34,692 nt of DNA from Actinomycetes bacterium (GTDB taxonomy: Bacteria; Actinomycetota; Thermoleophilia; RBG-16-64-13). Within the stretch, counting starts at the first letter, position 1. Each line of letters begins with the position of its first letter. The stretch lies in assembly GCA_024637035.1 (NCBI GenBank), contig JAGXFW010000003.1:1-34692 (forward strand), given 5' to 3'. The notes under the pieces are model-generated. The model saw only the letters and a list, made by a program, of their open reading frames with translations. It did not search any database and was not told where the DNA came from. The translations under genes were made by a program, and so were the position numbers. Below, one piece after another: positions 2-32,756 of the stretch.

Positions 2-253
2 TTCATCGAGAAGCAGATCAGCACCAACTCCGACATCGTGGCCCTCTCCGCCATGATGACCACCACCATGATGGGCATGAAGAAGGCCATCGTGAAGCTC
101 AAAGAGAAGAACCCGAACGTCATGATCATGGTCGGAGGCGCCCCCGTCACCGGCGAGATCGCCGACATGTTCGGTGCCGACGGCTACTCCGAGAACGCTT
201 CCAACGCCGTCTCCGAAGCCATCAAGATGGTAGGCGCTCTTCGCAACATGTAG
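2..253 (+). CDS. Corrinoid (cobalamin-binding) methyltransferase protein, C-terminal part
   Basis: This is the 3' end of a gene entering from the left edge, and only the last 83 residues are visible. The reading frame begins at base 2 and ends with TAG at 251-253. The text resembles the end of a B12-binding Rossmann domain of MtaC/MtbC/MtmC-type corrinoid proteins: a helix rich in Met and Thr (SAMMTTTM), a Lys-rich helix, then a beta strand MIMVGGAPV followed by GEIADMFGADGYSENA and a last helix. The GGAPV...GADGYS pattern is typical of the region that packs over the lower face of cobalamin. The His-bearing DxHxxG loop would lie upstream, outside the window. In such systems this protein carries the methyl group on cobalt between a substrate methyltransferase and a UroD-type enzyme such as the one at 6638-7714. 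Confidence 0.85.
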   Translation, partial: FIEKQISTNSDIVALSAMMTTTMMGMKKAIVKLKEKNPNVMIMVGGAPVTGEIADMFGADGYSENASNAVSEAIKMVGALRNM

Positions 254-275
254 CACCCGCCTGGTAGAAGGATGA

Positions 276-310
276 CCCCGGCGCGGCGCCTGTCTTGGGG
301 CGCGCCGGGG
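276..310 (+). terminator. Strong GC hairpin after the corrinoid gene
   Basis: The arms CCCCGGCGCG (276-285) and CGCGCCGGGG (301-310) are exact inverted repeats of 10 bp around a 15-nt loop. They lie 22 bases after the corrinoid gene stop and 77 bases before the next start. There is no clear T-tract after it (TATCTATCTC), so it may be a partial terminator, an attenuator or an mRNA-stabilising hairpin. Confidence 0.5.
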
Positions 311-386
311 TATCTATCTCTAGAACGGGCGCCGGTCCCAGTGATGTGGCCGGCGCGCAGCAGGCAACATCGACAAGGGGGATCGT

Positions 387-1220
387 ATGTCGAGCGCAGC
401 GCGTCGCGGAGAAGAGCTCTCCATCGAGGACTACCGTATCACCGAGGAACCCTACTACCGGGCTTCGGCGGATGAGGTCGAGCTCTTCGAGCAGGCGCAC
501 AAGCTGAAGTTCCCGGTCATGCTGAAGGGGCCCACCGGCAGCGGCAAGACCCGCTTCCTCCAGCACATGGCCTACCGCCTCAGACTGCCCCTGGTGACGG
601 TCGCCTGTCACGAAGACCTCACCGCCAGCGATCTTGTGGGCCGCTACCTCTTCATCGGCAACGAGACTCAATGGGTGGACGGGCCGCTGACGTTGGCGGT
701 GAAGCACGGCGGCATCTGCTATCTCGACGAGTTGGTGGAGGCGCGCAAGGACACCACCGTGGTGATCCACCCGCTGGGCGACGATCGTCGCATACTGCCC
801 ATCGAGAAGAAGGGTCACATCGTCGAGGCTCACGATGACTTCATGCTCGTGGTGAGCTTCAACCCCGGATACCAGAGCGTGCTCAAAGACCTGAAGCAGT
901 CGACGCGGCAGCGGTTCCTGGCTCTTGACTTCACGTATCCGGAGCGGGCCGCAGAGGTCGAGATCGTACGCACGGAGACCGGAGCCGATGCGGCCCTCGC
1001 CGACAAATTGGTGGAGCTCGCCTCCATGATCCGCAACCTGCGGGAGCACGGGCTCGAAGAGGGCGTCTCCACACGGCTTCTGGTGTACGCGGCGCGGCTG
1101 ATCCAGGACGGTGTGGCGCCGCGGAGGGCCGCCGCCGTGAGCATGGCGGCGCCTCTCACCGACGACGTCGACATGCTCGAGACCCTGTACGAACTCGTGG
1201 AGGCGGTGTTCGAGGCGTGA
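387..1220 (+). CDS. MoxR/CbbQ-family AAA+ ATPase
   Basis: A 277-residue AAA+ ATPase of the MoxR group, closest in layout to CbbQ/NorQ. Walker A is GPTGSGKT at residues 48-55, Walker B is ICYLDE at 110-115, and a sensor-1 Asn lies in VSFNPGY near 159, followed by the QSTRQRF arginine segment. A C-terminal helical lid contains [13 protein letters not shown]. CbbQ/NorQ proteins form hexamers that work with a VWA partner to remodel or load metals or cofactors into a target enzyme (Rubisco, nitric oxide reductase). The partner here is the next gene, which overlaps by 4 bp (GTGA). The target is unknown; by position it could be the corrinoid protein or methyltransferases of this cluster, which is inference. 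The ATG at 387 is preceded by GGGGGATCGT, a weak but plausible ribosome site. Confidence 0.9.
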
Positions 1221-3796
1221 CCTCGTTGGAGCAGACGATGCTCGACCGGCTGCAGGGCGAAGCGCGCAGCTTCGTCTCTCGGGCTCGGACGCGCCTGGAT
1301 GGACTCGACGAGACCGACCTGGCTCTCTGGGTCGATATGGCTGAGTTCATCAACGGTCAGCGTCTGCGCGACAAGCGCCGCTTCTTCTTGGTGTCCCTCG
1401 ACGGTCTGAGCGCCCTGGAGGAACGGCCCCTCCTGCGCGCCGAGGTGCACGCGACCGCGCGGCGTTTCACCGGGCGGTCGAGTCGCCTGGGCGTGGCGTT
1501 CATGACGTTGTGCCGAGATCTGATGCCGAAGATCAGGGAGGACGACTTCCGCGAGATCGTGGAACGGGCCTCGGCTCTGGACAAGGATGTCGACCTGGCC
1601 TCGACGTTCATGCAGTACTCGCCGGCCGTCCTGGCCCGACGGGACATGGACTACCTTCGCGCGTGGCACTCCGGGGCTCTCGCCCTTTCACAAGTGGGTT
1701 GGTGGGCCGCGAAGGGGTATTTGGAGGCGGCGGGTAAGTCCGCTCAGTGGCTGCACGAAGAAGACCTCCCCGTGTTGGCCGAGACCGGAGCCAAGGTGGC
1801 GACGCGCTCTCGCCATGCTGTCAAGGGCCTCTTCCAGGCGTTGCCGGCCCTTGTCGCCAGCATGACCGTCGCCCAACTCGTGCAGTGGGTGGAGATGGGT
1901 CTCCAGGTGACCCGCCGCGAGGAAGACCTGGTGCTCTACATGTCGTACGGGTCGAAGCGGAGCCACGAAGCGGTGGAGGTCTTGTGTAAGACCACGTCCT
2001 TCGCCGCGTTCCGAAGTCGTATCGCCTTGCTGCTCGAGGCGTTCTTGGGCCGCCCCGCTCAGGTGCGCAGCATGTACGATCTGCTCGACCCGGCCGGTGT
2101 ACCTCCGGACGTGCCGGCGTTCACCGACGGCGAGAGGCTCTACGTGCGCCCCACGCTCGGGTGTGCCGGGGTCGCTCCGCTCGCCCTCTACAAGTTGGTG
2201 GCGTTGCATGCCGCCGCCCACGAGCGGTTCGGCAGCTACGGCGAGAAGGAACTGGAGCTCTTGTTCAGGCGGGGCATCTCCATGCTCACAGGGCGCGACG
2301 ACGGCCCCTCTGATCTCGACAGGTTCCTGTTCGGTGTGGCAGAGGATTTCCGCGTGGACACTGCTCTGCTGCGCACCCTGCCGGGGTTGCGGGCCGACGC
2401 GGAACTCGTGGTATCGCAGACGTACCTGGAGGTGACGGACTCCGGGACGCCCTTGTCCCCGGCTTCGTTGCGCGCTCACGCCGCTGGATTCCACCTTGGC
2501 GTTCGTCTGTTGGACGCGGCTGGTGCGGCTGCCCTTGAGGGCGTCCTGAGCGGATTGGCCAGCCCCGCGGCGAGCCCGGCGGATTCGGCGGCGGCCGCGG
2601 CCGAGCTGAAAGCTCTCTTCGGCGACCGGCTCCTGGAAACACAGGAGGCCGCCGCGACGGACATCCCCCACCCGCCCTACTACGACCACCTCTTCCTGGG
2701 CATGAAGATCGCCTCCCTCAACGCGGACTCCGACGAGTCGGGGAAGCCGGGCGGTCTCTCCCCCGGGGCGCCCGTGGACGTGCCGGGAAGCCTGCACCCC
2801 AGCGAGGTCATCGAAGGCCTCGAGATCACCGTTCGAGACCGGCAACAGGAAGTCGACTTGTTGATCCGGGACGAGGAAGACGATGAAGACGGGGATGAAG
2901 AGGGCGACAAGTTCCTATACCATGAGTGGGACTCCGCGGCAGGGGACTTCCGCAGGGACTGGTGTACGGTCCGTTGCAAGGACATCCCCCTTGGTGATCC
3001 GGCCTTCGTGCAGGACACCATCTCGCGGTATCGGGGGGAAGTGCTCCTCATCCGCCGCCAGTTCGAGCGGTTGCGGCCGGAGCGGGTGCGGCGCTATTTC
3101 AGGCAGCAGGATGGGGACGAGCTCGATCTTGACGCGCTCACCGAGGCGCTTGCCGACAAGGCGGCCGGCGTGCAGATGAGCGACAAGATCTTCATCCGCA
3201 GGGACAAGAAGCAGCGGGACGTGGCCGTGCTGTTCCTGCTCGACATGAGCGACTCCACCGACCAGTTGGTGGAAGGCGGGGAGCGGGTCATCGATGTCGA
3301 GAAGCAGGGGCTCGTGCTCCTCTCGGAGGCGGTCACCCCACTGAACGACCGGTTCGCCGTGATGGGGTTCTCCAGCAGGGGGCGCAAGCACGTGGACATG
3401 TACCGCATCAAGGATTTCGACGACGAGTTCGACGAGACCGTGGAGCGACGCATCGCCGGCATCCAGCCGTTCGACTACACACGTTTGGGGGCAGCCATCC
3501 GCCACGCGACCGACCACTTGTCGAAAGAGAGCGCGGCCATCCGACTGCTCATCTTGCTGAGCGACGGCCGCCCCTACGACATGGGCTACGGCGACATGCG
3601 CTACGCGCTGGAGGACACCAAGATGGCTCTGTCGGAAGCCGTGCGCTCCGACACCAAGGTCTTCTGCATAACGGTCGATCCCGAAGGGCCACGGTACTTG
3701 GAGGACATGTTCGGGGCCAACAGGTACACGGTGATTCAGAATGTGAGTCATCTGCCCACCAAGCTACCCCGCATCTACGGAGCGTTGACCGCGTGA
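1217..3796 (+). CDS. CbbO/NorD-type VWA-domain protein
   Basis: An 859-residue protein starting at GTG 1217, which overlaps the stop of the AAA ATPase gene (GTGA), so the pair is probably translationally coupled. The C-terminal ~200 residues are a von Willebrand factor A domain with an intact MIDAS motif, D676-M-S678-D-S680, then a Thr in FDYTRLG and an Asp in [11 protein letters not shown]. The long N-terminal part is helical with no recognised catalytic motif. A very acidic linker ([13 protein letters not shown]) lies around residue 560. This architecture is that of CbbO/NorD, the adaptors that dock AAA hexamers onto a metalloenzyme through a metal-coordinated acidic residue. Confidence in the family is high. 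The substrate is not known, and no Rubisco or Nor gene is in view. Confidence 0.88.
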
Positions 3797-3836
3797 TGGA
3801 GGCGAACGAGAGGTGTCGCATGACCGAGGGGATCGC

Positions 3837-4484
3837 ATGAGGATCATCCAGATAGCCGGCTTCCTGGGGAGCGGAAAGACCACGCTCCTGCTGCGCATTT
3901 CGCGCTCGCTGGCTGAGGACAAGGGGTTCAAGGTGGCTTTGGTTGTCAACGAGATCGGCGAGATCCCCGTTGACGGCAAGGTCATGGAGGAGTCTGGTAT
4001 GAAGGTGAAGGACATCGGTGGCGGATGCATCTGCTGCGAGGTGGCCAGCACGTTCGCCAAGACCCTGACCCAGCTCTACCGCGACTTCTCGCCCGACATC
4101 GTGTTGGTGGAACCGACAGGTGTGGCCCTACCTCGTCAGGTGAAGCTGGCGGCGGCCATGGGCAGCAGGGGAGCTCCCATAGAGATCGGGCCGGTGGTGG
4201 TGTTGTTCGACGCCACCCGCCCCGACGAACTGCTCGACATGGAGCTGATGGGGCTGCTGGTCACCAGCCAGCTCGCGGACGCCGACATCGTGGCTGTCTC
4301 GAAGGTCGACGTGGTGGACGCCGCCGCGCTGGCGGCCGCGCTGGCGGCGGCGAAGGAAGTCATACCGGGAGCGGAGTTCATCCCGGTGTCGTCGGTCACC
4401 GGAGAGGGTCTCGATCTGCTGATCGAGCGCTTGTCGGCCGATGCCGCGCCTGGATCGGAGCGGGAGGTGGTCGATGCAGACTGA
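3837..4484 (+). CDS. G3E-family GTPase, CobW/COG0523-like, with GCICC metal motif
   Basis: A 215-residue P-loop GTPase. Walker A is GFLGSGKT (8-15), the switch region holds NEIGEIPVDG (38-47), the metal motif GGGCICC lies at 61-67 with Cys64, Cys66 and Cys67, Walker B-like VLVEPTG follows, and base recognition is SKVD in place of NKxD. The CxCC motif is diagnostic of COG0523 metallochaperones, which use GTP hydrolysis to hand a metal or metallocofactor to a client. The protein lacks the usual CobW C-terminal domain, so it is a minimal G domain. I chose ATG 3837 because GAGGGG precedes it and the family usually begins a few residues before the first strand. GTG 3813 (GGAGG at 3798-3802) is an alternative. 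It is the all-cysteine paralogue of the Sec-containing GTPase at 4965-5597. Confidence 0.88.
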   Translation: MRIIQIAGFLGSGKTTLLLRISRSLAEDKGFKVALVVNEIGEIPVDGKVMEESGMKVKDIGGGCICCEVASTFAKTLTQLYRDFSPDIVLVEPTGVALPRQVKLAAAMGSRGAPIEIGPVVVLFDATRPDELLDMELMGLLVTSQLADADIVAVSKVDVVDAAALAAALAAAKEVIPGAEFIPVSSVTGEGLDLLIERLSADAAPGSEREVVDAD

Positions 4485-4965
4485 CGACGCCTGTTATCTG
4501 GATCACGGCGTGAGCGGCTATGGCGTGGCTGTCAAGCTGCACCACGACCGGCCCGCGGAGCCGCAGGAGGTCGGCGACCTGCTGCGCGAGATGATGGACG
4601 CCATCGCCCGCGATTGCGTGGAGCGTGGCGCCAAGTTCATCGGGCACATCAAGTCGCACCTGATGTGCGCTCAGGGCAGCCTGAAGGCCGACACCATAGG
4701 TATCAGCCACCCGGCCGCCCTTCACGGCGAACTCTCCGGCCCATCGAACGACCTGTATGTGGCGATCAACTCCATCGTGCAGGGCATCACCGAGGTCCAG
4801 GTGAAAGAAGCCACCCTTGGCAGCGCGCACCGATTGGCGGAAGAGCGCGGGTTCCGCGTGGTCTTGGAGAAGGAGCACCTCTACTTCGACGAGTACGACT
4901 TCGCCTCCGACGAGGATTATCTCCAGCAACTCGAGGCGCAGTTCGAATCCGGGGCGGAGGAGTAG
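4474..4965 (+). CDS. Unknown protein between two GTPases
   Basis: A 163-residue soluble protein that I do not recognise. The ATG at 4474 has GGGAGG six bases upstream and overlaps the end of the first GTPase gene by 11 bp. Its last base is shared with the GTG of the second GTPase (TAGTG), so the three genes are tightly coupled. Visible features are a HDRPAEPQEVGDLLREMMDAIARD helix, a FIGHIKSHL strand-turn, a central region HPAALHGELSGPSNDLYVAINSIVQGI, and an acidic C-terminus (FDEYDFASDEDYLQQLE). There is one Cys near the start and one in HLMCAQG; His residues (HDH-type spacing is absent) could be metal ligands. Placement between two putative metallochaperone GTPases suggests an accessory or client-binding role, which is inference. 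Confidence 0.75.
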   Translation: MQTDDACYLDHGVSGYGVAVKLHHDRPAEPQEVGDLLREMMDAIARDCVERGAKFIGHIKSHLMCAQGSLKADTIGISHPAALHGELSGPSNDLYVAINSIVQGITEVQVKEATLGSAHRLAEERGFRVVLEKEHLYFDEYDFASDEDYLQQLEAQFESGAEE

Positions 4966-5597
4966 TGAGCACGAACGGCGATTCCGTGGCGACCCAGGTG
5001 ATCTCGGTGATCGGTCTGCTCGACTCGGGCAAGAGCTCCTTGATCCGCGTCCTTCTGGAGGCGGTACGCGAGCGCGGCGGCACCGCGGGCGTGGTCCTGA
5101 ACGACAGGGGGGCGGTCGAGTTGGACACCGAGGAGGTGACGGAGCACCATCCGATCGAGCAGATCGGAGGCGGATGAATCGGCTGCACCGAAGCCGGGAG
5201 CTTCGGTCGGGCCCTCAAGCAGATGACCCGTGTGCATGGAGTGAAGTATGTCTTCGCGGAACCCTCGGGCATCGTGGTACCCTTCGAGCTTCGCAACGCC
5301 ATCGCGATGGCTAGTCGTGACGCCAAGGTGTCCACCGGCCCGGTAGTCGTGCTCCTGAACGCGGCGGACCCTGAGGCGCCCTTCTCCGAACATGTGGCTC
5401 ACATCACGCGGCAACAAGTGCAGCAGGCGGACCTGATCGCCGTGACCAAGGCAGACGCAGCAGCCGACGGTGCCGTGGAGCACCTGGAGGCGGCGGCGCG
5501 CGCTCTTGCACCGGAGATCCCGATATACAGCGTGAGCCTTACTTCGGACCGAGCGATGACGGCCTTGGTCGACGCGATCCTTGGGAACAGGGAGTGA
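4965..5597 (+). CDS. G3E-like GTPase, probable selenoprotein (Sec71, GGGUIGC)
   Basis: The frame is open from GTG 4965 to the stop at 5597 except for one TGA at 5175-5177. The 210-residue product has Walker A GLLDSGKS (17-24), then IEQIGGG, the TGA codon (residue 71), IGC with Cys74, then FAEPSG and TKAD. Aligned with the neighbouring GTPase, GGG-C64-I-C-C67 corresponds to GGG-U71-I-G-C74. The TGA therefore replaces exactly the metal-binding Cys, and homology continues on both sides in the same frame. A perfect 8-bp hairpin starts 9 nt after the TGA. These facts favour Sec insertion over a pseudogene. If translation stopped at the TGA, the product would lose its switch II and base-recognition parts. 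Sec has not been shown experimentally; a nonsense mutation is the alternative. Confidence 0.85.
5187..5207 (+). promoter_or_regulatory. SECIS-like hairpin after the GTPase UGA
   Basis: Arms ACCGAAGC (5187-5194) and GCTTCGGT (5200-5207) pair perfectly over 8 bp around the 5-nt loop CGGGA. The hairpin begins 9 nt after the UGA at 5175-5177, the range in which SelB binds bacterial SECIS elements. It lies inside the coding frame, as bacterial SECIS elements do. Function is inferred from position and geometry. Confidence 0.65.
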
Positions 5598-5718
5598 AAT
5601 GGGTGTGGGTGGAAGTCACGCCAAGTGAAACGGCGCGCACGGAGAGCGCGAGAGGTCCGCAGAGTGTAGAGTTGTTCATGCGACCCGATGCCCGGGGCGC
5701 GCTGAGGGAAGGAAGACA

Positions 5719-6498
5719 GTGACGGCGGTAGCGAGATACGCCAGGCGAGCCGAGGAAGCGACGAGCCGGGATGCGGCTCCGTCCTTGGCTGCCGCGATCG
5801 AGGCGATCGCGACCCAGGCTGGGGTGGATCTGGTGGGCTTCGGTGACGTACGCGAGGCCCTCACGGCGGAATTCCTGCACCTTCCACAAGGCATCTCCCT
5901 CGGTGTGGTGCACCCGGCGGTCACACTTCTTCAGAGTCAGCAGAGACCGATCTCTGAACGCGCCCTGGCGAGGGCTCTCTCGGATCATCGGGACACCAGA
6001 GGTCAGGCCGTTCTGGACGCGGCGCTGAGGAAGATAGCGGAGTTCCTTCGAGCCGAAGGGTACCGCTACTTCTGCTGCCCCCCCGAGGTCGACCCTATGG
6101 AGACACCGTTCGCCGCACTGATGGTGCGCCGGTTCTCTCACAAGGCCGCCGCCACCTGCGCGGGGCTCGGCACGGTGGGCAGGCACGGGCTTCTGAATCA
6201 CCCGGAGTACGGACCGCACGTTGGCTGGGCGACGGTTGTGACCAACGCGCCTTTGCCGGTCAGCAGTCCTGAGTTCGAGAGCCGTTGTGGGGACTGTGGG
6301 CTGTGTGTGTCCGCATGTCCGGCGGGTGCGATCTCGGGGCGCACCTGGCGGAGGGAAGACGGCATGGTGCGCATGGTCGATGTTGACAAGTGCCGCACGC
6401 TTCTTGACGAGAACGAGCGCACCACCGGTCGGAGGACCTGTGGGTGCTGCGCCGTGGCGTGCACGAAAGCGAGGTTGACAGGGTTTTCTGTCCTGTGA
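5719..6498 (+). CDS. QueG-like protein with two 4Fe-4S motifs
   Basis: A 259-residue iron-sulfur protein. The C-terminal part has a ferredoxin-like motif CGDCGLCVSACPAGA, followed by a second Cys set in DKCRTLL and TCGCCAVACTKA, enough for two 4Fe-4S clusters. The middle (CCPPEVDPMETPFAALMVRRFSHKAAATCAGLGTVGRHGLL) resembles epoxyqueuosine-reductase-type proteins (QueG fold), where this region contacts a corrinoid. It lacks the full QueG length (~350), so a queuosine role is unlikely. Related double-cluster proteins are common beside corrinoid methyltransferases, where reductive activation of Co(II) to Co(I) is needed. That makes it a candidate electron donor here (inference). The GTG start at 5719 follows GGAAGGAAG. 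A 121-bp gap with no evident gene separates it from the GTPase. Confidence 0.8.
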   Translation: MTAVARYARRAEEATSRDAAPSLAAAIEAIATQAGVDLVGFGDVREALTAEFLHLPQGISLGVVHPAVTLLQSQQRPISERALARALSDHRDTRGQAVLDAALRKIAEFLRAEGYRYFCCPPEVDPMETPFAALMVRRFSHKAAATCAGLGTVGRHGLLNHPEYGPHVGWATVVTNAPLPVSSPEFESRCGDCGLCVSACPAGAISGRTWRREDGMVRMVDVDKCRTLLDENERTTGRRTCGCCAVACTKARLTGFSVL

Positions 6499-6580
6499 CC
6501 CGAGGCACGCCGGGAATCGCCGCCCAAGGCGGTGTGGCGTGTAGTCGGGCATCACGCGGAGGAAGGGGGTGGTGGCCGGT

Positions 6581-6592
6581 CCTTAGCTAAGG
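6581..6592. promoter_or_regulatory. 12-bp perfect palindrome upstream of the methyltransferase gene
   Basis: CCTTAGCTAAGG is a perfect palindrome 45 bases before the ATG at 6638, in a 139-bp gap that separates the methyltransferase sub-operon from the 4Fe-4S gene. It is a candidate operator. No convincing -35/-10 pair was identified. Confidence 0.3.
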
Positions 6593-6637
6593 TGATCTCA
6601 TTGATCCCGTATACGTTCGAGCAATGGAAGGAGGACG

Positions 6638-7714
6638 ATGGGAAAGCAGGCAGTTCTTGATGCCTACCAGGGGAAGTACACCCCGGTAGTGCCGTGGGTT
6701 CCGTATGTTGGTGTGCACGGTGCGTATCTCATCGGTGAGACAGCGACGACGGTCCTTCAGGATGCGGATCTGCTGGCAAAAGCGGTGGTCAACGCCGCCG
6801 CCAGGTACAAGGCAGACGGTATCCCGTTGGTCTTCGACCTCGCGGTCGAAGCCATGTCTATGGGCATCGAAGCCAAGTGGTTCGATGACAACCCACCGAC
6901 GGTCATCGTTCACCCGCTCATCGACAAAACGTTGGCGGAAGCCAACCTCTCGATCCCCGGCCCGCAAGACGGTCGTTGGCCGGTGATCATCGAGGCTGGC
7001 AAGAAGGCCAAGGCTCAACTCGGTGACGTAGCGCTCATCGGTCTCGTGTGTGGTCCGCTCACTTTGGCTTCGCACCTTCGCGGCGCGAAGATCTTCACCG
7101 ACATGGTGAAGAAGCCTGAGTTGGCCATGGAGATCCTCGAGTTCGCCGCCAAGGTGTGCGCCGAATCCGCGCGCATCTACGCGGAAGAGATCGGCTGCGA
7201 CATCGTTGCGTTGGTGGAGCCGGTCGGCAGCCAGGTGCGTCCGGACACGTACGACAAGTTCGTCATCCCGGCCTGCCAGGAAGCCATCGAGAAGATCCAC
7301 GGCGCCGGCAAGGTCAGCTCTCTGTACATCTGCGGCGACGCTACCAAGATCGTCGAGAACATGATGTACACCGGCTGCCAATGTGTCTGCGTGGACGAGC
7401 AGCTGAACATGAACTACGTACGTGACGGTGCGATGAAGTACGGTCGTGGGTTCGGCGGTAACTTGAAGCTCACGTTGGCTCTCTCGTTGGGGATCATCGA
7501 TCCTCGCGAAGACGCCATCGTCAGCCTCGCCGCCGGTGGGAAGGTGGGATACACCTTCTCCCCTGGCTGAGACATGCCCTACGACGTTCCAGTTGAGAAC
7601 GTGGATAAGGTACTCGAAGCCAAGACCTGGTACGAGACGTACTACGCGCACTATCCCGACGTCCCCTACCCGGCGTTGCAGCCCATGCGCAGCCCGGCCC
7701 AAGTAGGGGGGTGA
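6638..7714 (+). CDS. UroD/MtbA-type methyltransferase, probable selenoprotein (Sec311)
   Basis: ATG 6638 follows GGAGG. The frame is open to TGA 7712-7714 apart from an internal TGA at 7568-7570 (codon 311), giving 358 residues, close to the usual 340-360 of the family. Stopping at 7568 would cut off the last helix and one metal ligand. Family features include the N-terminal TPVVPWVPYVG, LIGLVCGPLTLASHLRG, LVEPVGSQ, SLYICGDATKIV and GGKVGYTFSPG-U-DMPYDVPVENV. In MtaA/MtbA/UroD-like methylcobamide:thiol methyltransferases the catalytic zinc is held by HxC plus a distal Cys, and that distal Cys is in the SPGC(D/A) motif. Here the distal ligand is the TGA codon and the first motif is YIC. The enzyme would move methyl from the corrinoid protein to a thiol or similar acceptor. 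Sec as a zinc ligand is inferred. Confidence 0.85.
7584..7602 (+). promoter_or_regulatory. SECIS-like hairpin after the methyltransferase UGA
   Basis: Arms ACGTTC (7584-7589) and GAACGT (7597-7602) are exact complements around a 7-nt loop CAGTTGA that contains a GU. The hairpin begins 13 nt after the UGA at 7568-7570. The stem is shorter than in the other four cases, so this is the weakest of the five. Confidence 0.45.
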
Positions 7715-7719
7715 TCGGT

Positions 7720-8058
7720 ATGTCAGAGAAGATCCTGGTAGAGGTTCTGACTCTCGACTCCCTTCAGTGACCGGCTTGCGGGTACATGGTCGATGTACTC
7801 ACTACGCTGCCGGATGACGTGAAGGAATTCATCGACTACAAAGAGTGGTCGATCAAGAACCCTGAAGGCATCGGCATGTTCGTCGAGCGCAAGGGACGCG
7901 TTCTCCCGACTCTCTGTGTGAACAAGGAGTTGTCGTACGAGAGCATCATCCCGACGCTGGACGAGCTGTACGAGACCCTTCTTGGGGCTGCGACCTCCGA
8001 CGAGCAGCGTGACACCTTGAAAAAGGCGCACGCCAAAGCTCAGGAGGAGTACGAGTAA
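7720..8058 (+). CDS. Small thioredoxin-like protein, probable selenoprotein (U17-P-A-C20)
   Basis: ATG 7720 lies 6 bases after the methyltransferase stop, behind a G-rich site (AGGGGGG). One TGA at 7768-7770 (codon 17) interrupts a 112-residue frame. The sequence around it, VEVLTLDSLQ-U-PACGYMVDVL, is a thioredoxin-type strand followed by a UxxC redox motif and helix. Downstream come KNPEGIGMFVERKGRVLPTLCVNKEL, with a Pro before the last strand like the cis-Pro loop, and an acidic and basic C-terminal helix. The first start after the TGA (ATG 7786) would drop the whole first strand and the redox motif, so a separate gene starting there is unlikely. A hairpin with the loop GGTCG follows the TGA at 9 nt. 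Likely role: thiol/selenol redox partner or methyl acceptor for the upstream methyltransferase (inference). Confidence 0.85.
7780..7800 (+). promoter_or_regulatory. SECIS-like hairpin after the thioredoxin-like UGA
   Basis: Arms GGGTACAT (7780-7787) and ATGTACTC (7793-7800) make an 8-bp stem with one G-U pair around the loop GGTCG. It starts 9 nt after the UGA at 7768-7770. A GGUC loop is also a feature of the Escherichia coli fdhF SECIS, where the G and U are read by SelB. This is the best-looking of the five. Confidence 0.72.
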
Positions 8059-8075
8059 GAACCGTGCTCGGATGC

Positions 8076-8106
8076 GGGCGGCGGCGGCCATCGGCCGCCG
8101 CCGCCC
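8076..8106 (+). other. 14-bp perfect GC hairpin between genes
   Basis: Arms of 14 bp (8076-8089 and 8093-8106, built of GGC/GCC repeats) pair perfectly around ATC. It lies 18 bases after the thioredoxin-like gene and is followed by CCATTCG, not a T-run. It may slow ribosomes, protect mRNA ends or partly terminate. Confidence 0.55.
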
Positions 8107-8136
8107 CATTCGCATAGGAAGGAGTCCCTCGAACCC

Positions 8137-8709
8137 ATGGCCGTGCGACGCATCTGTATGCATGCGTGTGGGGGGATCACCCGGGTGGGCGCCACCGTCG
8201 CCCGATTGGCGACGTACGTGGTCGCCGAAGAGTTGATCCCCGAGAAGACGCTCATCTCCTGCGCTCCGGCCTTCCTCAGAGGCGTGGAGGAAGACGTCCT
8301 CATGGTCGTGAAGAGCCCGTCGTTCGCGCTGGACGGCTGCGATCACAGCTGCGGCACCAACCTGCTCTACCTCGCCGGCATCACTCCGGCCGTTCGCTTC
8401 CACCTGCCCGAGTACGCCGAAGCCCAGGGTTTCGTCCTTGCCGGCGGGAGTCGAAGGTTCCCGTCCGGTGTTACGAGAGATTTCAGCCGGTTCGTGGCCG
8501 AGCGGGTGGCGGGCATCGCTGGCGGCATGATGAAGAAGGGCAGTTCATACACTTTCGAACGCCCCGAGTTGCTGAAGCAGCCAGACAAGTGGTTCCGCTC
8601 CGCGCCGAACATGGAGGGGAGCATGGAGTTCGTGCAGATCGAGCCGGGTATCTACCGGCCGGTCTCGATGCCCCCGCTTCCCGAGGAGACCGCTGATGGC
8701 GGTCGATAA
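8137..8709 (+). CDS. DGC-domain putative zinc-binding protein, first copy
   Basis: A 190-residue protein with the DGC motif: ALDGCDHSCG, with Asp66, Gly67, Cys68 and Cys72. A further Cys11 sits in HACGGI at the N-terminus and another in LISCAPAF, so a four-ligand Cys site is plausible. The family (putative zinc-binding, DGC domain) is of unknown function and often accompanies metal or selenium-related genes. GGAAGGAG lies 12 bases before the ATG. The C-terminal tail is Pro-rich and has no further Cys. The next gene is a paralogue that overlaps by 14 bp and has the same spacing of motif residues. A role in metal or metalloid binding within this cluster is inferred from position. Confidence 0.8.
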   Translation: MAVRRICMHACGGITRVGATVARLATYVVAEELIPEKTLISCAPAFLRGVEEDVLMVVKSPSFALDGCDHSCGTNLLYLAGITPAVRFHLPEYAEAQGFVLAGGSRRFPSGVTRDFSRFVAERVAGIAGGMMKKGSSYTFERPELLKQPDKWFRSAPNMEGSMEFVQIEPGIYRPVSMPPLPEETADGGR

Positions 8710-9316
8710 GGTCACCATCTTCCCGTGCGGTGGCATCGGCGATCCTGTGTCGTCGGTCACCAGGCTCGCGGGCTACATCTTGGACGAAGACCTGCTGCCG
8801 GGTCGCGTCGAGTTGGTCTCGATCCCGCCCGTCATCACGGGAGTGCCCGAGGAGTTGGAGCGGGTGCAGGCCTATCCGGTGATCGCTCTCGACGGCTGCG
8901 GGCATCGCTGCGGCTCGAATGCGCTCAATCTCGTGGGCATCAAGCCGGCGGCGCGTTTGTTCACTCCCCGCGTGCGCTCTGAGACGAAGAACGCCATCGG
9001 TCGCCGTCGCCCCTTCCCGGAGGTCTCGGGCCAGAAGCTGGCAAAGGACCTCGCGGAACGCGCAGCCGCGATCGCCCGGCACATGCTGGAAGACCCTGAC
9101 TATGAGTTCCAGCGGCAGACGGCGGCGCCGAACCCCGAGGGTCTTCACGACGAGACGCTCGACATCGAAGAGACCCTCGGTTACGAAGAGGTCGAGTCGG
9201 GCTGCTACCAGTGCTCGGGGATGTGTGCGTTCAAGCTGGAGAAGGACCCCGAACTGCGGCGCCAGTTGGAGGAAGAAGTGAAGGAGTACGAGGAGCTGGA
9301 TGGATTCGACAGCTAG
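8696..9316 (+). CDS. DGC-domain putative zinc-binding protein, second copy
   Basis: A 206-residue paralogue of the preceding gene. Cys11 is in FPCGGIGDP, and ALDGCGHRCG holds Asp66, Gly67, Cys68 and Cys72. Unlike the first copy it ends with an extra Cys-rich segment, GCYQCSGMC, followed by an acidic, charged helix (EKDPELRRQLEEEVKEYEELD), so it could bind a second metal. ATG 8696 follows GAGGAG and overlaps the preceding stop, so the two are co-translated and may form a heterodimer. The conserved identical motif spacing points to duplication and divergence. Function is unknown; metal or metalloid binding is the likely activity. Confidence 0.8.
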   Translation: MAVDKVTIFPCGGIGDPVSSVTRLAGYILDEDLLPGRVELVSIPPVITGVPEELERVQAYPVIALDGCGHRCGSNALNLVGIKPAARLFTPRVRSETKNAIGRRRPFPEVSGQKLAKDLAERAAAIARHMLEDPDYEFQRQTAAPNPEGLHDETLDIEETLGYEEVESGCYQCSGMCAFKLEKDPELRRQLEEEVKEYEELDGFDS

Positions 9317-9335
9317 GAAGCTCTGGACGAGGCTC

Positions 9336-9359
9336 GGTGGGTCCGGGAGCGGACCCGCC
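9336..9359 (+). other. 10-bp hairpin after the DGC genes
   Basis: GGTGGGTCCG (9336-9345) pairs with CGGACCCGCC (9350-9359) with one G-U pair around GGAG. It lies 19 bases after the second DGC gene and 53 bases before the next start. No T-tract follows, so it is probably an mRNA element or an inefficient terminator. Confidence 0.45.
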
Positions 9360-9412
9360 GGATGGGCTCACTTGGGAAGTGGCAAGACGACCCGTTGTAG
9401 GAGGTGACACTC

Positions 9413-9673
9413 GTGGGCATGGACCAGGTGGAAGATGGTGGTCGGGATGCACCCGCCGGCGGGGCGACGCGGCTGGTGCTCCGTGGTTGAGTCACCTGCG
9501 GCTCGGCCGTGCGCCGGGCTCTTGAGACATCAGCCGAGGTGGGATTGCTGGACATGAACTGGGAAGAGCATTGGGCTGACGTGGAGTTCCGCGAGCCTTC
9601 CTTCGGAGTCGAGGAGTTGCGGGCACGCCTCATACTCGCGGGCGCCTGGTGCGACGTATGGTCCTCGGAATGA
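9413..9673 (+). CDS. HMA-type metal-binding protein, probable selenoprotein (U26-V-T-C29)
   Basis: GTG 9413 follows GGAGG by 9 bases. One TGA at 9488-9490 (codon 26) interrupts an 86-residue frame ending at TGA 9671-9673. The product follows the heavy-metal-associated (HMA/MerP) fold order: strand ATRLVLRG, metal loop U-VTC, helix GSAVRRALETSA, strands VGLLDMNW and WADVEFRE, helix GVEELRARLILAGA, last strand CDVW. HMA domains bind soft metals with CxxC in this loop, and the TGA replaces the first Cys, giving UxxC. A region before the first strand (residues 4-18) looks disordered. A hairpin starts 9 nt after the TGA. No translation start after the TGA would keep the metal loop. Candidate soft metal, metalloid or organometal carrier. 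The family call rests on fold pattern, not a database match. Confidence 0.78.
9500..9520 (+). promoter_or_regulatory. SECIS-like hairpin after the HMA UGA
   Basis: GGCTCGGC (9500-9507) pairs with GCCGGGCT (9513-9520) as an 8-bp stem with two G-U pairs around the loop CGTGC. It starts 9 nt after the UGA at 9488-9490, the same spacing and size as the GTPase and thioredoxin-like hairpins. Confidence 0.6.
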
Positions 9674-9733
9674 TCCCGGGGATGATCCCCTGGATGCGGC
9701 GAGGCTCACGGAGACCGCAAGAGATGAGGCGCC

Positions 9734-10186
9734 GTGCTTGAGGTGCAGGTGATCTCTGAGGGCGGCCACTGCGTGCCCTGACTGTACGCCATCGAGGCCA
9801 CCAGGGAGGTGGCCGCGGAGTTCGGCGAGGACGTGGTGCAGGTGGAGGTGGTCACCTTGAAGGAGCTGGCCGGGGCCGAGCGGTACCGGGAGCTCCGCCG
9901 CCTGGCGGGTGAGCACCTGCCGGTGCCGTGCGTCCTCCTGGGGGGCAGGCTGGTGTCGCCGGGCATCCCCGAGCAGGACGAGCTGCGCCTCGTGTTCGAA
10001 GAAGCCTTGTCCGCCGGCCAAGCCGCCGGCCGTGACGCGGGGGATGTCTCGGGGGATGTCTCGGGGGATGTCTCGGGGGACCTCGGACGAGATGACGCAG
10101 GGCACGTCTCGCGGGATGTCTCGGGGGACGCCGCCCTTGATGCCGAACGGGACGCAGGAAACCACGCTGGAGGTCCACCATGTTGA
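9734..10186 (+). CDS. Thioredoxin-like protein, probable selenoprotein (C13-V-P-U16) with repeat tail
   Basis: GTG 9734 begins a 150-residue frame with one TGA at 9779-9781 (codon 16). The first strand and active site read VLEVQVISEGGHCVP-U-LYAIEATREV, a CxxU redox motif. The middle VVQVEVVTLKELAG and the later LPVPCVLLGGRLVSPGIP give the second strand, the cis-Pro loop and the last strand pair of a thioredoxin fold. After about residue 95 the protein becomes a low-complexity Gly/Asp/Val/Ser tail coded by 12-nt tandem repeats. GTG 9734 is forced because TGA at 9725-9727 closes the frame upstream. The next start (GTG 9809) would remove the redox motif. Small thioredoxin-like selenoproteins of this kind occur in selenium-dependent organometal gene sets, as I recall; I cannot confirm a family name here. 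Confidence 0.8.
9796..9814 (+). promoter_or_regulatory. SECIS-like hairpin after the CVPU UGA
   Basis: GGCCACC (9796-9802) and GGTGGCC (9808-9814) are a perfect 7-bp stem around the loop AGGGA. It begins 14 nt after the UGA at 9779-9781, five bases further than three of the other hairpins. Confidence 0.55.
10039..10131 (+). repeat. 12-nt tandem repeat inside the thioredoxin-like gene
   Basis: GGGGGATGTCTC is repeated three times without change (10039-10050, 10051-10062, 10063-10074), then in degenerate form to about 10131. Each unit is in frame and codes for a Gly-Asp-Val-Ser-like tetrapeptide, making the low-complexity C-terminal tail. Because units are a multiple of three, copy number can change without shifting the frame. 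Confidence 0.85.
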
Positions 10187-10797
10187 CGCTCGAGGGCTTC
10201 TACGGTCAGAACGTGGAGATCGCCGAAGACCGTCTCTACGACCCAGAGGAAGAGCTCTGGGTGCAGGAGCGCGGCGACGTGGTCCGGGTGGGCGTGAGCA
10301 AGGTGGGGGTGCTCCTCATGGGGGGCATCGAGTCCACCGAGTTCTTCGTGGAGCCGGGCGATCGGCTGTCCGCCGGCGAGGACATCGTGTTCTTCGAGAC
10401 GTTCAAGGCCGTCCGCTATGTGGTCTCGCCCCTGGCCGGGGAGATCACGGCGATCAACGAGACGGTGGTGGACGACCCGGAGCTGTTCGATGACGATCCA
10501 TACGGCGAGGCCTGGTTGTACGAGATGAGACTCGCCCCGGGAGACGTGGCGGCGGGGCGGCTGTGCGACCCCGCCACCTACCTGGCCGCTCTCGAGCGCT
10601 CTGAGCACTGCGCCGAGGGAGCCGAGGTGCTGCTGGAGGCCAAGAAGGGCTCACCCACCTGCCGCTCGGTGTACGGCGGGATCCGCGGCAACGAGCCCGG
10701 CGAGGGGAGCTTGAGCTGGAAGGAGCCGGCACCACCTGATGCCTCCTCCCCCCCGCCCGAAGGCCCGAGCGAAGAAGGATCCCGCGGGATCACCTGA
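10180..10797 (+). CDS. GcvH-like lipoyl-domain protein
   Basis: A 205-residue protein whose first ~130 residues follow the glycine cleavage H protein: WVQERGDVVRVGVSKVGVLLMGGI, FFVEPGDRLSAGEDIVFFETFKAVRYVVSPLAGEITAINE, then DDPELFDDDPYGEAWLYEM. The lipoyl-accepting lysine is Lys76 in ETFKAVRY. The C-terminal 70 residues are unlike H protein: a Cys in HCAEGA and SPTCRSV, then a Pro/Ser/Glu-rich tail. No GcvP, GcvT or lipoate ligase is nearby, so a role in glycine cleavage is doubtful. Stand-alone H-like proteins can serve as lipoyl carriers for other systems. ATG 10180 follows GGAGGTCCACC and overlaps the thioredoxin-like gene by 7 bp, which places it in the same operon. A dithiol carrier serving the upstream selenoproteins is an attractive but untested idea. 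Confidence 0.82.
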   Translation: MLTLEGFYGQNVEIAEDRLYDPEEELWVQERGDVVRVGVSKVGVLLMGGIESTEFFVEPGDRLSAGEDIVFFETFKAVRYVVSPLAGEITAINETVVDDPELFDDDPYGEAWLYEMRLAPGDVAAGRLCDPATYLAALERSEHCAEGAEVLLEAKKGSPTCRSVYGGIRGNEPGEGSLSWKEPAPPDASSPPPEGPSEEGSRGIT

Positions 10798-24410: not shown

Positions 24411-24689
24411 ATGTCTGAATCGCTTACAGTCACCGAGGTGGTCCGTCACTTCGCCGACTACGTCAATCGCGTCGTCTATCGCCGCGAGTCATTCGTCCTG
24501 GTTCGTGGCAACAAGCCCGTGGCAGAACTCCGGCCCCTGCCCCTCGGAAGACGGCTGGGCGAGCTTCCGGGGTTGTTCGCGTCGCTGCCGCACCTGTCAC
24601 CGGCCGAAGCCGATGGCTTCGCGGCCGATCTCGATGCTGCCCGAGACGATCTCGACGGGGCTGAGGTCCACGATCCGTGGCCGTCCTGA
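24411..24689 (+). CDS. Phd/YefM-family antitoxin
   Basis: A 92-residue antitoxin. LTVTEVVRHFADYVNRVVYRRESFVLVRGNKPVAELRPL is a Phd/YefM-type DNA-binding half with the usual strand 'VLVRGNKPVAEL', and the Asp/Ala-rich C-terminus is the toxin-binding tail. It is expected to neutralise the PIN toxin that overlaps its end by 13 bp, and to repress the promoter at 24368-24390. ATG 24411 is preceded by GAGGCGAGC. Confidence 0.85.
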   Translation: MSESLTVTEVVRHFADYVNRVVYRRESFVLVRGNKPVAELRPLPLGRRLGELPGLFASLPHLSPAEADGFAADLDAARDDLDGAEVHDPWPS

Positions 24690-25090
24690 TCGATGCGAGC
24701 ATCTTGATCGAGGCCGAGCGCGGTAGGCTCGACCTGGGGCGGCACGTGGCGCTCCGGCCGGACGAGGAGTCGTTCCTGTCCGTGATCACCGCGAGTGAGC
24801 TGCTCCACGGAGTCCACCGTGCGATTGAGCCCCATCAGCGCGCGCGACGCGCGGCGTTCGTCGAAGGTATCCTCGAACGCTTCCCCCTGCTGCACGTGGA
24901 TCTGGCCACCGCGCGCGCCCATGCTCGGGTGTGGGCGGAACTCGCGAAAGCGGGCACGCTCATCGGTGCCCACGATCTGTGGCTGGCGGCCACCTGCGTG
25001 GCGCACGGGCTCACCATGGTAACGGCGAATATCCGCGAGTTCGAGCGGGTTCCCGGTCTTCAGGTCGAGAGCTGGAGGGATCTGGGGTGA
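24677..25090 (+). CDS. vapC: PIN-domain ribonuclease toxin, VapC-like
   Basis: A 137-residue PIN-domain RNase. The acidic metal-binding set is present: Asp in VLIDASILIE, Glu in ITASELLHGVHRA, Asp in IGAHDLWLAATC, and the late TANIREFERVPG. GTG 24677 overlaps the antitoxin gene by 13 bp, so the two are coupled. It cleaves RNA, typically tRNA or rRNA, when the antitoxin is degraded. Confidence 0.92.
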   Translation: MAVLIDASILIEAERGRLDLGRHVALRPDEESFLSVITASELLHGVHRAIEPHQRARRAAFVEGILERFPLLHVDLATARAHARVWAELAKAGTLIGAHDLWLAATCVAHGLTMVTANIREFERVPGLQVESWRDLG

Positions 25091-30701: not shown

Positions 30702-30978
30702 GGGCCGGACCGCCGTGCCGCGGGGGCGGCGTGATGGGGGCCTACTCTCTTGCTTGCGCCGCCTTTGTTGTGGGATTTAGCCTGCTTCGTGTAGTGGTAG
30801 ACGTACTGGTTCCCGGAATATGTCGCTCCACCCCCCCGCTCCCGCCACTTCCTGACCCGTAGAGGAGATCGCGGATCACATGCGGCAGGTGCTTCAACTG
30901 GTTGGCGATCCTCGCAACCGTCGGCGCCGCCATCTTCGCGGTGTAGGTCGAGCATCCTTCACGATACCGTGCCCGTAT
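30702..30978. other. Gap without a supported gene
   Basis: About 277 bases without a gene I can defend. A minus-strand frame (AKMAAPTVARIANQLKHLPHVIRDLL) is open but has no ribosome site and no match I recognise; it may be a relic. The region leads into the AbiE operator. Confidence 0.4.
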
Positions 30979-31033
30979 CTGCAATACTACTGCGTTAAGT
31001 TGCTATTCATGCATTACCGCAGTAGACTTGCAG
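30979..31033. promoter_or_regulatory. Inverted-repeat operator of the AbiE pair
   Basis: CTGCAATACTACTGCG (30979-30994) and CGCAGTAGACTTGCAG (31018-31033) are inverted repeats matching at 14 of 16 positions, 23 bp apart, ending two bases before ATG 31036. AbiEi antitoxins are known to bind paired inverted repeats upstream of their gene and repress it. The spacer is AT-richer and may hold the promoter. Confidence 0.7.
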
Positions 31034-31035
31034 AC

Positions 31036-31884
31036 ATGGACGACCACCTCCCTGGCGAATACGGGCTCTCAGCGGGCATCACTCTGGCCGGCAGTCTAGC
31101 CGACGCCGGTCGGTATGTCTTCACGTCGGAGGACGCCGTCGAGTTGTGCCCTCCCGACATCCGCCCCGAAGCCGTCCCTCGCTTGCTCAAGTCGCTCGCC
31201 GACGCCGGCTGGATCGTCCGACTACGTCGAGGCCTGTACGCGGGGACGGGAAGGCTCCCAGGGGGAATGGACGTGCCACCCTTCGCCATCGCGACCTCTA
31301 TGGTGAAGCCGTCGGCCATCGCCCATCTATCCGCTCTTGCCCACCATGGCCTCACCGACCAGATCCCCCGAGTGGTCTCTGCCATCACCTCGCGGAAGAT
31401 CGTGATGCCCAGCATGAGAGGCACCCGCACAGGAGCGGACGGTCCGCACCTTTGGCACGTGGCTGGACTCGACGTCCGCTATGTCGTCGTCGTCCCCAAG
31501 CACTTCGAGCTGGGGATAGAGATGATCTGGCTGGATGAACGCTTCCGCATACCTATCACCGATCGGGAGCGGACTGTTCTCGATCTCTTCGCCATGCCCC
31601 GACTGTTCGGTGGTCTTGGGGAAGGACTAAGGGTTCTGGAAGGAACCCAGGGCGAGATAGATGTTCCACGGTTGGTCGGATATGCCCTCCGGTACGGTTC
31701 GATCTCAGTCGCCAAGCGCCTGGGGTGGAGCCTGGAGGCCACCGGCGCCAGAGCGGCGTCACTTGCCCCCATCCTTGATCTGGAGGCGCGCAGCTACAGC
31801 CCACTTGACCCGGGCCGGGCGCGGCGGGGACGGTATGACCGCCGCTGGATGATCATCGACAACCGCGGCGAAGACCGGGTATGA
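31036..31884 (+). CDS. abiEi: AbiEi-type type IV antitoxin
   Basis: A 282-residue antitoxin. The winged-helix DNA-binding half includes VFTSEDAVELCPPDIRPEAVPRLLKSLADAGWIVRLRRGLYAGT. The C-terminal domain contains ATSMVKPSAIAHLSALAHHGLTDQIP and WLDERFRIPITDRERTVLDLFAMPRLFGGLGEGLRVL, the usual AbiEi landmarks. It does not contact its toxin directly but opposes its effect, and represses the operon. ATG 31036 is just past the operator, and an alternative ATG 31009 lies inside it. The toxin gene overlaps its end by 4 bp (ATGA). Confidence 0.92.
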   Translation: MDDHLPGEYGLSAGITLAGSLADAGRYVFTSEDAVELCPPDIRPEAVPRLLKSLADAGWIVRLRRGLYAGTGRLPGGMDVPPFAIATSMVKPSAIAHLSALAHHGLTDQIPRVVSAITSRKIVMPSMRGTRTGADGPHLWHVAGLDVRYVVVVPKHFELGIEMIWLDERFRIPITDRERTVLDLFAMPRLFGGLGEGLRVLEGTQGEIDVPRLVGYALRYGSISVAKRLGWSLEATGARAASLAPILDLEARSYSPLDPGRARRGRYDRRWMIIDNRGEDRV

Positions 31885-32756
31885 CCAAGGGGCTTTCTCC
31901 GCTTCGGGACCGCTTGCGGAGGGCCGCCCAGGCCTTGGGTCTGCCCATCGACGTGGTCGAGTTCGACTATGGACTCAGTTACGTCCTCGCTGCCATCTAT
32001 GCTCACCAAGACCTGCATGAGTCCTTCGTCTTCAAAGGCGGGACCGCCCTGGCGAAGGCCCACGTTGCCGGCTACCGATTCTCGCGCGACCTGGACTTCA
32101 CTGCCGTCGGAGGACCACGGGGTGATGAGCTCGAGCGGACCATGGAGATCGTCGCCCACGATGCCGAGGAGATGCTGAGCGAGCACGGGCCCTTCGTCGT
32201 CACGTCGACCCGACGAACCGAGCGGGGCGCTCATCCCTCTGATCAAGAGGCGTTCGTCGTTCTCGTGCGATTCCCCTGGCATCGATCGGTCCTGCGGGGC
32301 GTCAAGGTCGAGGTCACCGTCGACGAGCCGCTGGCCCTGTCCGCTCAGACCCTTCCGCTGCTACACCCCTACGGTGAGGCCCTTGCTACCGACCTACGCG
32401 TGTACCGCTTGGAGGAGATCGTCGCGGAGAAGTTGCGCACCCCTCTACAGGCGCAGAAGCGCGTCGAGGGAGGGTCCTGGGCCCGCAACTGCGCCCGTGA
32501 TTATTACGACCTCTGGTTTCTCCTTCGGCTGGAAGAGGGCTTCGTCGATCTGCGGGCGGTCCGCGGTATCTTGCCTCAGAAGTGCGCTGTCCGAGATGTC
32601 GTCTTCACCGGCGTGGACGACTTCTTCCCTCCGCTCATCGTCAGCGAGGCAAAGCGCCAGTGGGAGACCAGCCTAGCCGACCTCGTCACGCCGCTGCCGA
32701 GCTTCGATGATGCGATAGAGGGAGTCCGGGAGGCCGTGAGCGCTCTCCTTGGGTGA
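31881..32756 (+). CDS. abiEii: AbiEii-type nucleotidyltransferase toxin
   Basis: A 291-residue nucleotidyltransferase toxin. The signature FVFKGGTALAKAHVAGYRFSRDLDFT carries the GG(T)xL loop and the DxD metal pair. Downstream landmarks are VKVEVTVDEPLA, RLEEIVAEKLRTPL and CARDYYDLWFLL. Toxins of this family transfer nucleotides to tRNA or other targets and cause abortive infection or growth arrest. It appears intact and full length. It is translationally coupled to the antitoxin. After its stop the sequence runs straight into an Rhs fragment on the other strand. Confidence 0.93.
   Translation: MTKGLSPLRDRLRRAAQALGLPIDVVEFDYGLSYVLAAIYAHQDLHESFVFKGGTALAKAHVAGYRFSRDLDFTAVGGPRGDELERTMEIVAHDAEEMLSEHGPFVVTSTRRTERGAHPSDQEAFVVLVRFPWHRSVLRGVKVEVTVDEPLALSAQTLPLLHPYGEALATDLRVYRLEEIVAEKLRTPLQAQKRVEGGSWARNCARDYYDLWFLLRLEEGFVDLRAVRGILPQKCAVRDVVFTGVDDFFPPLIVSEAKRQWETSLADLVTPLPSFDDAIEGVREAVSALLG

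Follow-up and report, generated by a model that had tools for sequence, protein, structure and literature searches.

Five probable selenoprotein genes in an apparent corrinoid methyl-transfer cluster of an uncultured anaerobic actinobacterium

Introduction

Why should five genes lying between positions 4965 and 10186 of a single contig each hold an in-frame TGA, and what might their products do? The contig, JAGXFW010000003.1 (C24), belongs to the 3.57 Mb, 100% complete genome of an uncultured anaerobic actinobacterium; its positions 1 to 34,692 form the window, that is, the whole stretch of DNA analyzed here. An earlier note on the window had read the five as probable selenoprotein genes. The evidence below leads us to conclude that they are almost certainly selenoprotein genes whose UGA codons are read by SelB and tRNA-Sec, and that they very probably form part of a gene cluster with a role in corrinoid-dependent methyl transfer, a function that the earlier note did not see.

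Results

The five TGAs lie at 5175, 7568, 7768, 9488 and 9779, exactly where the earlier note had placed them, and its claim that reading frame and homology run on both sides of each is borne out by family matches of the read-through proteins. The genes are as follows (U, selenocysteine or Sec).

4965..5597, + strand: CobW-like selenoprotein; Sec TGA 5175-5177, GGGUIGC, at the first Cys of the CxCC metal motif
6638..7714, + strand: URO-D/MtaA-like corrinoid methyltransferase selenoprotein; Sec TGA 7568-7570, residue 311 (PF01208, TIGR01463, alignment with 4ay7)
7720..8058, + strand: thioredoxin-fold selenoprotein; Sec TGA 7768-7770, UPAC (weak NF047660 match; AlphaFold/Foldseek; TGA in 6 of 6 genomes)
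9404..9673, + strand: HMA-fold selenoprotein; Sec TGA 9488-9490, GUVTCG, UxxC at the HMA metal site (AlphaFold/Foldseek; TGA in 6 of 6 genomes)
9734..10186, + strand: HUIPC-type thioredoxin-like selenoprotein; motif HCVPU, Sec TGA 9779-9781, second position of CxxC (NF047660; TGA in 6 of 6 genomes)

The decoding machinery that the earlier note proposed looking for, selA, selB, selC and selD, is present in the same genome: selA and selB are adjacent on contig C26, which also carries tRNA-Sec(UCA), and selD lies on contig C7 (L012, C7:14250-15176). selD is itself a selenoprotein gene, with the motif GSGUACK, and, with SelD counted, the genome's Sec sites number at least eight. Two more selenoprotein genes lie in tandem on contig C18 (L043 8773-10500): one encodes an AhpD-like domain with CAPU followed by further in-frame TGAs (GGGUTGU), and the other a HUIPC-type thioredoxin with SUVLC, of which all five relatives have a TGA-bearing counterpart.

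That the TGAs are better placed than chance would allow, as the earlier note held, is supported by comparison with relatives. The cluster occurs in 6 of the 18 genomes of the order, spanning five genera. The TGA stands at the same residue of the URO-D, thioredoxin, HMA and HCVPU genes in all six cluster-bearing genomes, and in all three that have the gene for the CobW-like selenoprotein. These six genomes were separately assembled, and their cluster proteins are 52-97% identical. Base changes 3' of the TGA are mostly at third codon positions, implying that translation continues past it. Under translation table 11 every one of the five frames is closed, as would be expected if the TGAs were nonsense mutations or sequencing errors, or if the operon were decaying. 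Against this, the identical TGA recurs in genomes of independent origin, the parts 3' of it evolve as coding sequence, and all five fall at functional Cys sites. The conserved TGA refutes this reading, to which we give practically no weight, and the same TGA in independent genomes excludes the sequencing error that, by the earlier note's own account, would have refuted its interpretation. A scan of genome contigs with the thioredoxin selenoprotein matched only a genome of the same genus, JAHJSA01 (Actinomycetota bacterium OS_PC_MetaG.mb.176); a scan of viral contigs gave no match.

UGA is reassigned in some bacteria, and it might here encode another residue, for example Trp or Gly, rather than Sec. 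However, TGA is the ordinary stop of most neighboring genes and also of four of the five selenoprotein genes, which excludes a general reassignment. The presence of selABC and selD in the genome also speaks against it, as do homologues that show Cys, not Trp or Gly, at TGA sites. We have therefore rejected reassignment, the probability of which we regard as negligible.

Each TGA is followed by a candidate selenocysteine insertion sequence (SECIS) hairpin. The spacing of 9-14 nt claimed in the earlier note is confirmed, the stem starting 9 nt after the TGA codon in the CobW, thioredoxin and HMA genes, 13 nt after it in URO-D and 14 nt after it in HCVPU.

5187..5207, + strand: CobW candidate SECIS hairpin, loop CGGGA
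7584..7602, + strand: URO-D candidate SECIS hairpin, loop C(A/G)GTTGA, stem identical in six genomes
7780..7800, + strand: thioredoxin candidate SECIS hairpin, loop GGTCG
9500..9520, + strand: HMA candidate SECIS hairpin, loop (C/G)GTGC, one two-sided pair change
9796..9814, + strand: HCVPU candidate SECIS hairpin, loop (A/C)GGGA or CGTGA, one two-sided pair change

Counted from the T of TGA, the apical loop starts at 20 nt in the CobW, thioredoxin and HMA hairpins, at 22 in URO-D and at 24 in HCVPU, and all five loops contain a G. Across the relatives, 193 of 198 pair cells are standard, and there are three two-sided changes. Measured against the GC-rich background, hairpin energy gave a mean P of ~0.02 for the set, two of the five being average. 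Synonymous change, compared using one genome per genus, is reduced by about half over the 14 codons that follow the TGA, and this applies to all five genes (0.18-0.31 versus 0.38-0.55 elsewhere). Equally conserved stretches of 14 codons are almost absent from the CobW, HMA and HCVPU genes; there are 3 of 63 in the thioredoxin gene and 44 of 304 in URO-D. Hairpin energy alone is weak evidence in GC-rich DNA, and constant position, G-containing loops, pairing and suppressed synonymous change are stronger.

All five in-frame UGAs coincide with a Cys or Sec site of the protein family, although for the HMA and HCVPU proteins the Cys is one of fold or family level only. Three of the five Sec residues are at metal-ligand positions and two are in thioredoxin motifs. 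The CobW-like selenoprotein matches PF02492 (E 2.8e-22), and its Sec aligns with the first Cys of CxCC both in E. coli YjiA and in the window's own CobW paralogue; its best NCBIfam match is NF041053, at 132.6 bits, below the curated cut-off of 180. The UPAC protein has a thioredoxin fold (AlphaFold predicted local distance difference test, pLDDT, 90.7) and matches thioredoxins in Foldseek. TGA-less thioredoxin paralogues in one relative (G009) have Tyr at the Sec site and were therefore not accepted as Cys homologues. The HMA-like protein shows a weak HMA profile match; its AlphaFold model (pLDDT 86.9) finds PacS, MerP and ATP7-type domains as best Foldseek matches and carries UxxC at the HMA metal site, whereas NF041115, a family of UxxU metal-binding (seleno)proteins, scores 14.4 bits, below its curated cut-off of 95. 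The HCVPU protein matches NF047660 at 83.2 bits (E 1e-23), below the cut-off of 105, with the motif HCVPU, not HUIPC. By profile match, three of the five families thus have NCBIfam relatives (NF041053, NF047660, NF041115), all below cut-off and one with Sec and Cys swapped. The HCVPU protein has a (GDVS)n tail, encoded by tandem GGGGATGTCTC repeats at 10040-10160 and variable among relatives, and in one relative (G017; L039 9656-9739) a short duplicated N-terminus of the thioredoxin selenoprotein, TGA included, directly follows the full gene.

The URO-D selenoprotein matches PF01208 at 166.3 bits, above the gathering cut-off of 23.9 (E 1.2e-48), and the MtaA/CmuA family TIGR01463 at 125.4 bits, below the curated cut-off of 235.4 (E 3e-36). 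URO-D-type S/Se-methyltransferases have a His-Cys-Cys zinc site (PMC10418091). Aligned to MtaA (4ay7), the protein has Sec311 where MtaA has the zinc-ligand Cys of its C-terminal PGC motif, Cys232 opposite the other Cys, and Tyr230 in place of the zinc-ligand His. The site is Tyr230-Cys232-Sec311 instead of His-Cys-Cys, a triad that the first methyltransferase of the cluster retains. The gut Clostridium Subdoligranulum variabile (OY725850.1, 25.8 kb) encodes a natural URO-D-thioredoxin fusion of 459 residues, its URO-D part 36% identical. Both Sec sites are Cys in the fusion (PGCDMPY; DSATCAAC), and the His is replaced by Phe. A tree of 18 URO-D proteins unites this fusion and the six Sec proteins in one clade (support 100/99), whose members carry Tyr or Phe in the position of the His; nearly all the other proteins, including those of the typical mlp cluster of Acetoanaerobium noterae, have His-Cys-Cys. 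After the Subdoligranulum fusion come a radical-SAM-like gene and a CobW-like gene (L077 1610-3540), which repeats the CobW link in a second phylum.

The earlier note expected Cys and TGA to alternate among homologues. For URO-D and the UPAC thioredoxin (Cys in Subdoligranulum) and for CobW (Cys in the paralogue and in YjiA) this holds, the relatives having TGA; for the HMA-like and the second thioredoxin-like proteins no direct Cys orthologue was found.

The URO-D selenoprotein family seems new. There was no such family entry among the NCBIfam matches, and a Sec-containing URO-D/MtaA methyltransferase is unreported in the 2026 review PMC13188914, in the deep-Sep paper and in our literature searches, a coverage that is incomplete and leaves relevant papers by Haft outside it.

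The earlier note was right that selenoprotein genes occupy 4965-10186, but the full feature is considerably larger, comprising window positions 2-10797 and contig C19. Likewise, the five TGA genes do not adjoin throughout, since three unaffected genes (an Fe-S protein and two DGC proteins) lie between them. The remaining cluster genes in the window are listed below.

2..253, + strand: MtbC-like corrinoid (B12-binding) protein, C-terminal part, cut by the contig start (PF02310, NF041607); N-terminal part on C19
387..1220, + strand: CbbQ/NorQ-type AAA ATPase (AAA_5, CbbQ_C), in 3 of 6 clusters
1217..3796, + strand: VWA-domain partner of the AAA ATPase (PF00092)
3813..4484, + strand: CobW-like GTPase (cobW PF02492), the Cys paralogue of the Sec gene, its GGGCICC metal motif intact
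4441..4965, + strand: conserved hypothetical protein, no family match, kept in the three clusters with the module
5719..6498, + strand: two-[4Fe-4S] protein similar to the C-terminal half of QueG/reductive dehalogenase (TIGR00276, TIGR02486, Fer4)
8137..8709, + strand: DGC-domain protein, putative zinc binding (PF08859)
8696..9316, + strand: second DGC-domain protein (PF08859)
10180..10797, + strand: GcvH-like lipoyl protein with ETFKAV lipoylation motif, last cluster gene (NF045810, 117.7 bits; PF01597)

Contig C19 carries CobO, GntR, a corrinoid activase, MtrH, a His-Cys-Cys MtaA-like methyltransferase and the N-terminal part of the corrinoid protein, the gene for which is split: C19 holds residues 3-89, and the window residues 139-221, of a full-length homologue. 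The C19 end (C19:1-261) and the window start break this same gene, with ~50 codons unassembled; C19, reversed, and then C24 seem to form a single locus. In the relative G009, on a 4.6 Mb contig, the order runs CobO, GntR/FCD regulator, RACo/AcsV-type activase, MtrH, MtaA-like methyltransferase (His-Cys-Cys) and corrinoid protein, and then AAA (CbbQ), VWA, CobW, hypothetical, CobW-Sec, Fe-S protein, URO-D-Sec, thioredoxin-Sec, DGC, DGC, HMA-Sec, HCVPU-Sec and GcvH-like. Three other relatives (G016, G017 and G007) lack the module from AAA to CobW-Sec and keep the remaining order as far as their contigs extend. The cluster contains the type 1 mlp set of MtaA-like methyltransferases, corrinoid protein and Ram/RACE activase. 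The genome also has a gene for the acetyl-CoA synthase beta subunit, so the methyl group could enter the Wood-Ljungdahl pathway. Elsewhere in the window, translations suggest a Phd/PIN-type toxin-antitoxin pair (24411-25090) and an AbiEi/AbiEii-like pair (30880-32756).

Discussion

Judged from its genes, the cluster is best explained overall as related to the mlp/Sdm systems for corrinoid Se/S-methyl transfer and upgraded with Sec, an explanation that we consider reasonably probable. A methyl group would be moved between a soft substrate, either a methyl-selenide or thiol or a metal-bound methyl, and the corrinoid protein; MtrH would hand it to tetrahydrofolate and so to the Wood-Ljungdahl pathway, and the RACo/AcsV-type activase would bring Co(II) back to Co(I). 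The URO-D selenoprotein would be a second methyltransferase, its zinc site turned into Tyr-Cys-Sec, in which Sec311 might either ligate a soft metal or substrate or form a redox pair with Cys232. The loss of His, the gain of Sec and the presence of a thioredoxin as neighbor or fusion partner point to a softer or redox-active site that is kept reduced, most likely by the adjacent UPAC thioredoxin. Because three Sec residues occupy metal-ligand sites and the other two thioredoxin motifs, the remaining proteins are likely to serve in metal supply and dithiol reduction. The HMA-fold (UxxC), CobW (UxGC) and DGC proteins may deliver or hold metal; dithiol reducing power may come from the HCVPU thioredoxin and from the GcvH-like lipoyl protein. 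A soft Se/S or metal substrate with thioredoxin coupling, inferred as to both substrate and redox role, is a suggestion that we make tentatively.

Several observations count against this interpretation or parts of it. No direct Cys orthologue of the HMA-like or HCVPU protein was found, plasmid searches with both giving no match. The hairpin energies of URO-D and thioredoxin are by themselves unremarkable. No transporter or dedicated selenium-metabolism gene was seen beside the cluster. Finally, the Sec methyltransferase lacks the His ligand and so might be something other than a zinc methyltransferase.

The cluster might instead mainly scavenge methylated selenium in the manner of SdmABC, the His-Cys-Cys enzyme demethylating methyl-selenides and the Sec proteins handling the released selenide for SelD. 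In favor of this, ClMlp2 uses methylcobalamin to methylate selenide (PMC10418091), an sdm-like methyltransferase operon is strongly induced by selenium depletion in Methanococcus (PMC11097638), and the genome's Sec sites, SelD included, number eight or more. Nevertheless, a pathway that spends five Sec residues on obtaining selenium depends on its own product. In addition, the cluster occurs in just a third of the order's genomes, a count that leaves aside Sec use by the others, and no selenium transporter was seen in it. We think this explanation unlikely. Less likely still is the demethylation or detoxification of a soft metal or metalloid (methylated mercury, arsenic or tellurium) with Sec as high-affinity ligand, as proposed for the selenocysteine-assisted organometallic (SAO) system. 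The HMA-fold protein that resembles MerP, the CobW and DGC metal-binding proteins and the replacement of metal-ligand Cys by Sec in three of five proteins all fit this idea; however, no mercury or arsenic detoxification family or SAO family appeared among the cluster proteins scanned, and MtrH suggests that the methyl group gets used.

A bolder reading, which we regard as speculative and on balance doubtful, is that there is a new branch of corrinoid methyltransferases with a remodeled zinc site. This site, aromatic-Cys-Sec here and aromatic-Cys-Cys in gut Clostridia, would be redox switched and reduced by a dedicated or fused thioredoxin, coupling methyl transfer at cobalamin to thiol/selenol redox, and the other selenoproteins would supply metal and electrons.

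An apparent new selenoprotein family of Sec-containing URO-D/MtaA-type methyltransferases would tie selenocysteine directly to corrinoid methyl transfer. The locus also offers a test case for the replacement of Cys by Sec at metal-ligand sites, with His-Cys-Cys and Tyr-Cys-Sec methyltransferases in one cluster and a natural all-Cys fusion in gut bacteria. Because annotation that reads TGA only as a stop cuts all five genes, similar clusters have probably been overlooked.

How does the cluster compare with known systems? The earlier note had called so dense an island unusual. Five different selenoprotein genes do stand together, but density alone is less unusual than it held: the SAO operon (Haft and Gwadz 2023) has six selenoprotein genes and Tso three, according to a review (PMC13188914). 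As the review describes it, SAO likewise packs unrelated selenoproteins closely together, one of them thioredoxin-like, and its chemistry is presumed to involve metals. The difference is in the families: an NCBIfam scan of cluster proteins gave no match to SaoL, SaoC, SaoT, SaoB, SaoP or SaoX (NF0407xx models), and SAO membership was rejected for this reason. The type 1 mlp clusters of Kountz and Balskus (PMC10418091) and SdmABC are similar in that a CobW-like gene also adjoins such a cluster in Acetoanaerobium. They differ in that their methyltransferases are almost invariably His-Cys-Cys, whereas one here is Tyr-Cys-Sec, and in that the cluster described here also includes MtrH, four further selenoproteins and DGC and GcvH-like genes. 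The Acetoanaerobium noterae sequence (NZ_CP154629.1, L080 4031-14520) contains a complete cluster of mlp type, in which an ABC transporter and a CobW-like gene accompany four URO-D genes; at 2.6 Mb it is labeled a plasmid and looks like a chromosome.

Among single families, NF041053 has Sec in a UxxC motif (PMC13188914); the CobW-like selenoprotein has UIGC in place of its paralogue's CICC. The HCVPU protein matches NF047660 over the whole domain with Sec and Cys exchanged, HCVPU versus HUIPC. The URO-D selenoprotein shares the fold family of MtaA, the methylcobalamin:CoM methyltransferase, and places Sec311 and Cys232 on its zinc-ligand Cys pair, but it has Tyr for the zinc-ligand His and Sec for Cys.

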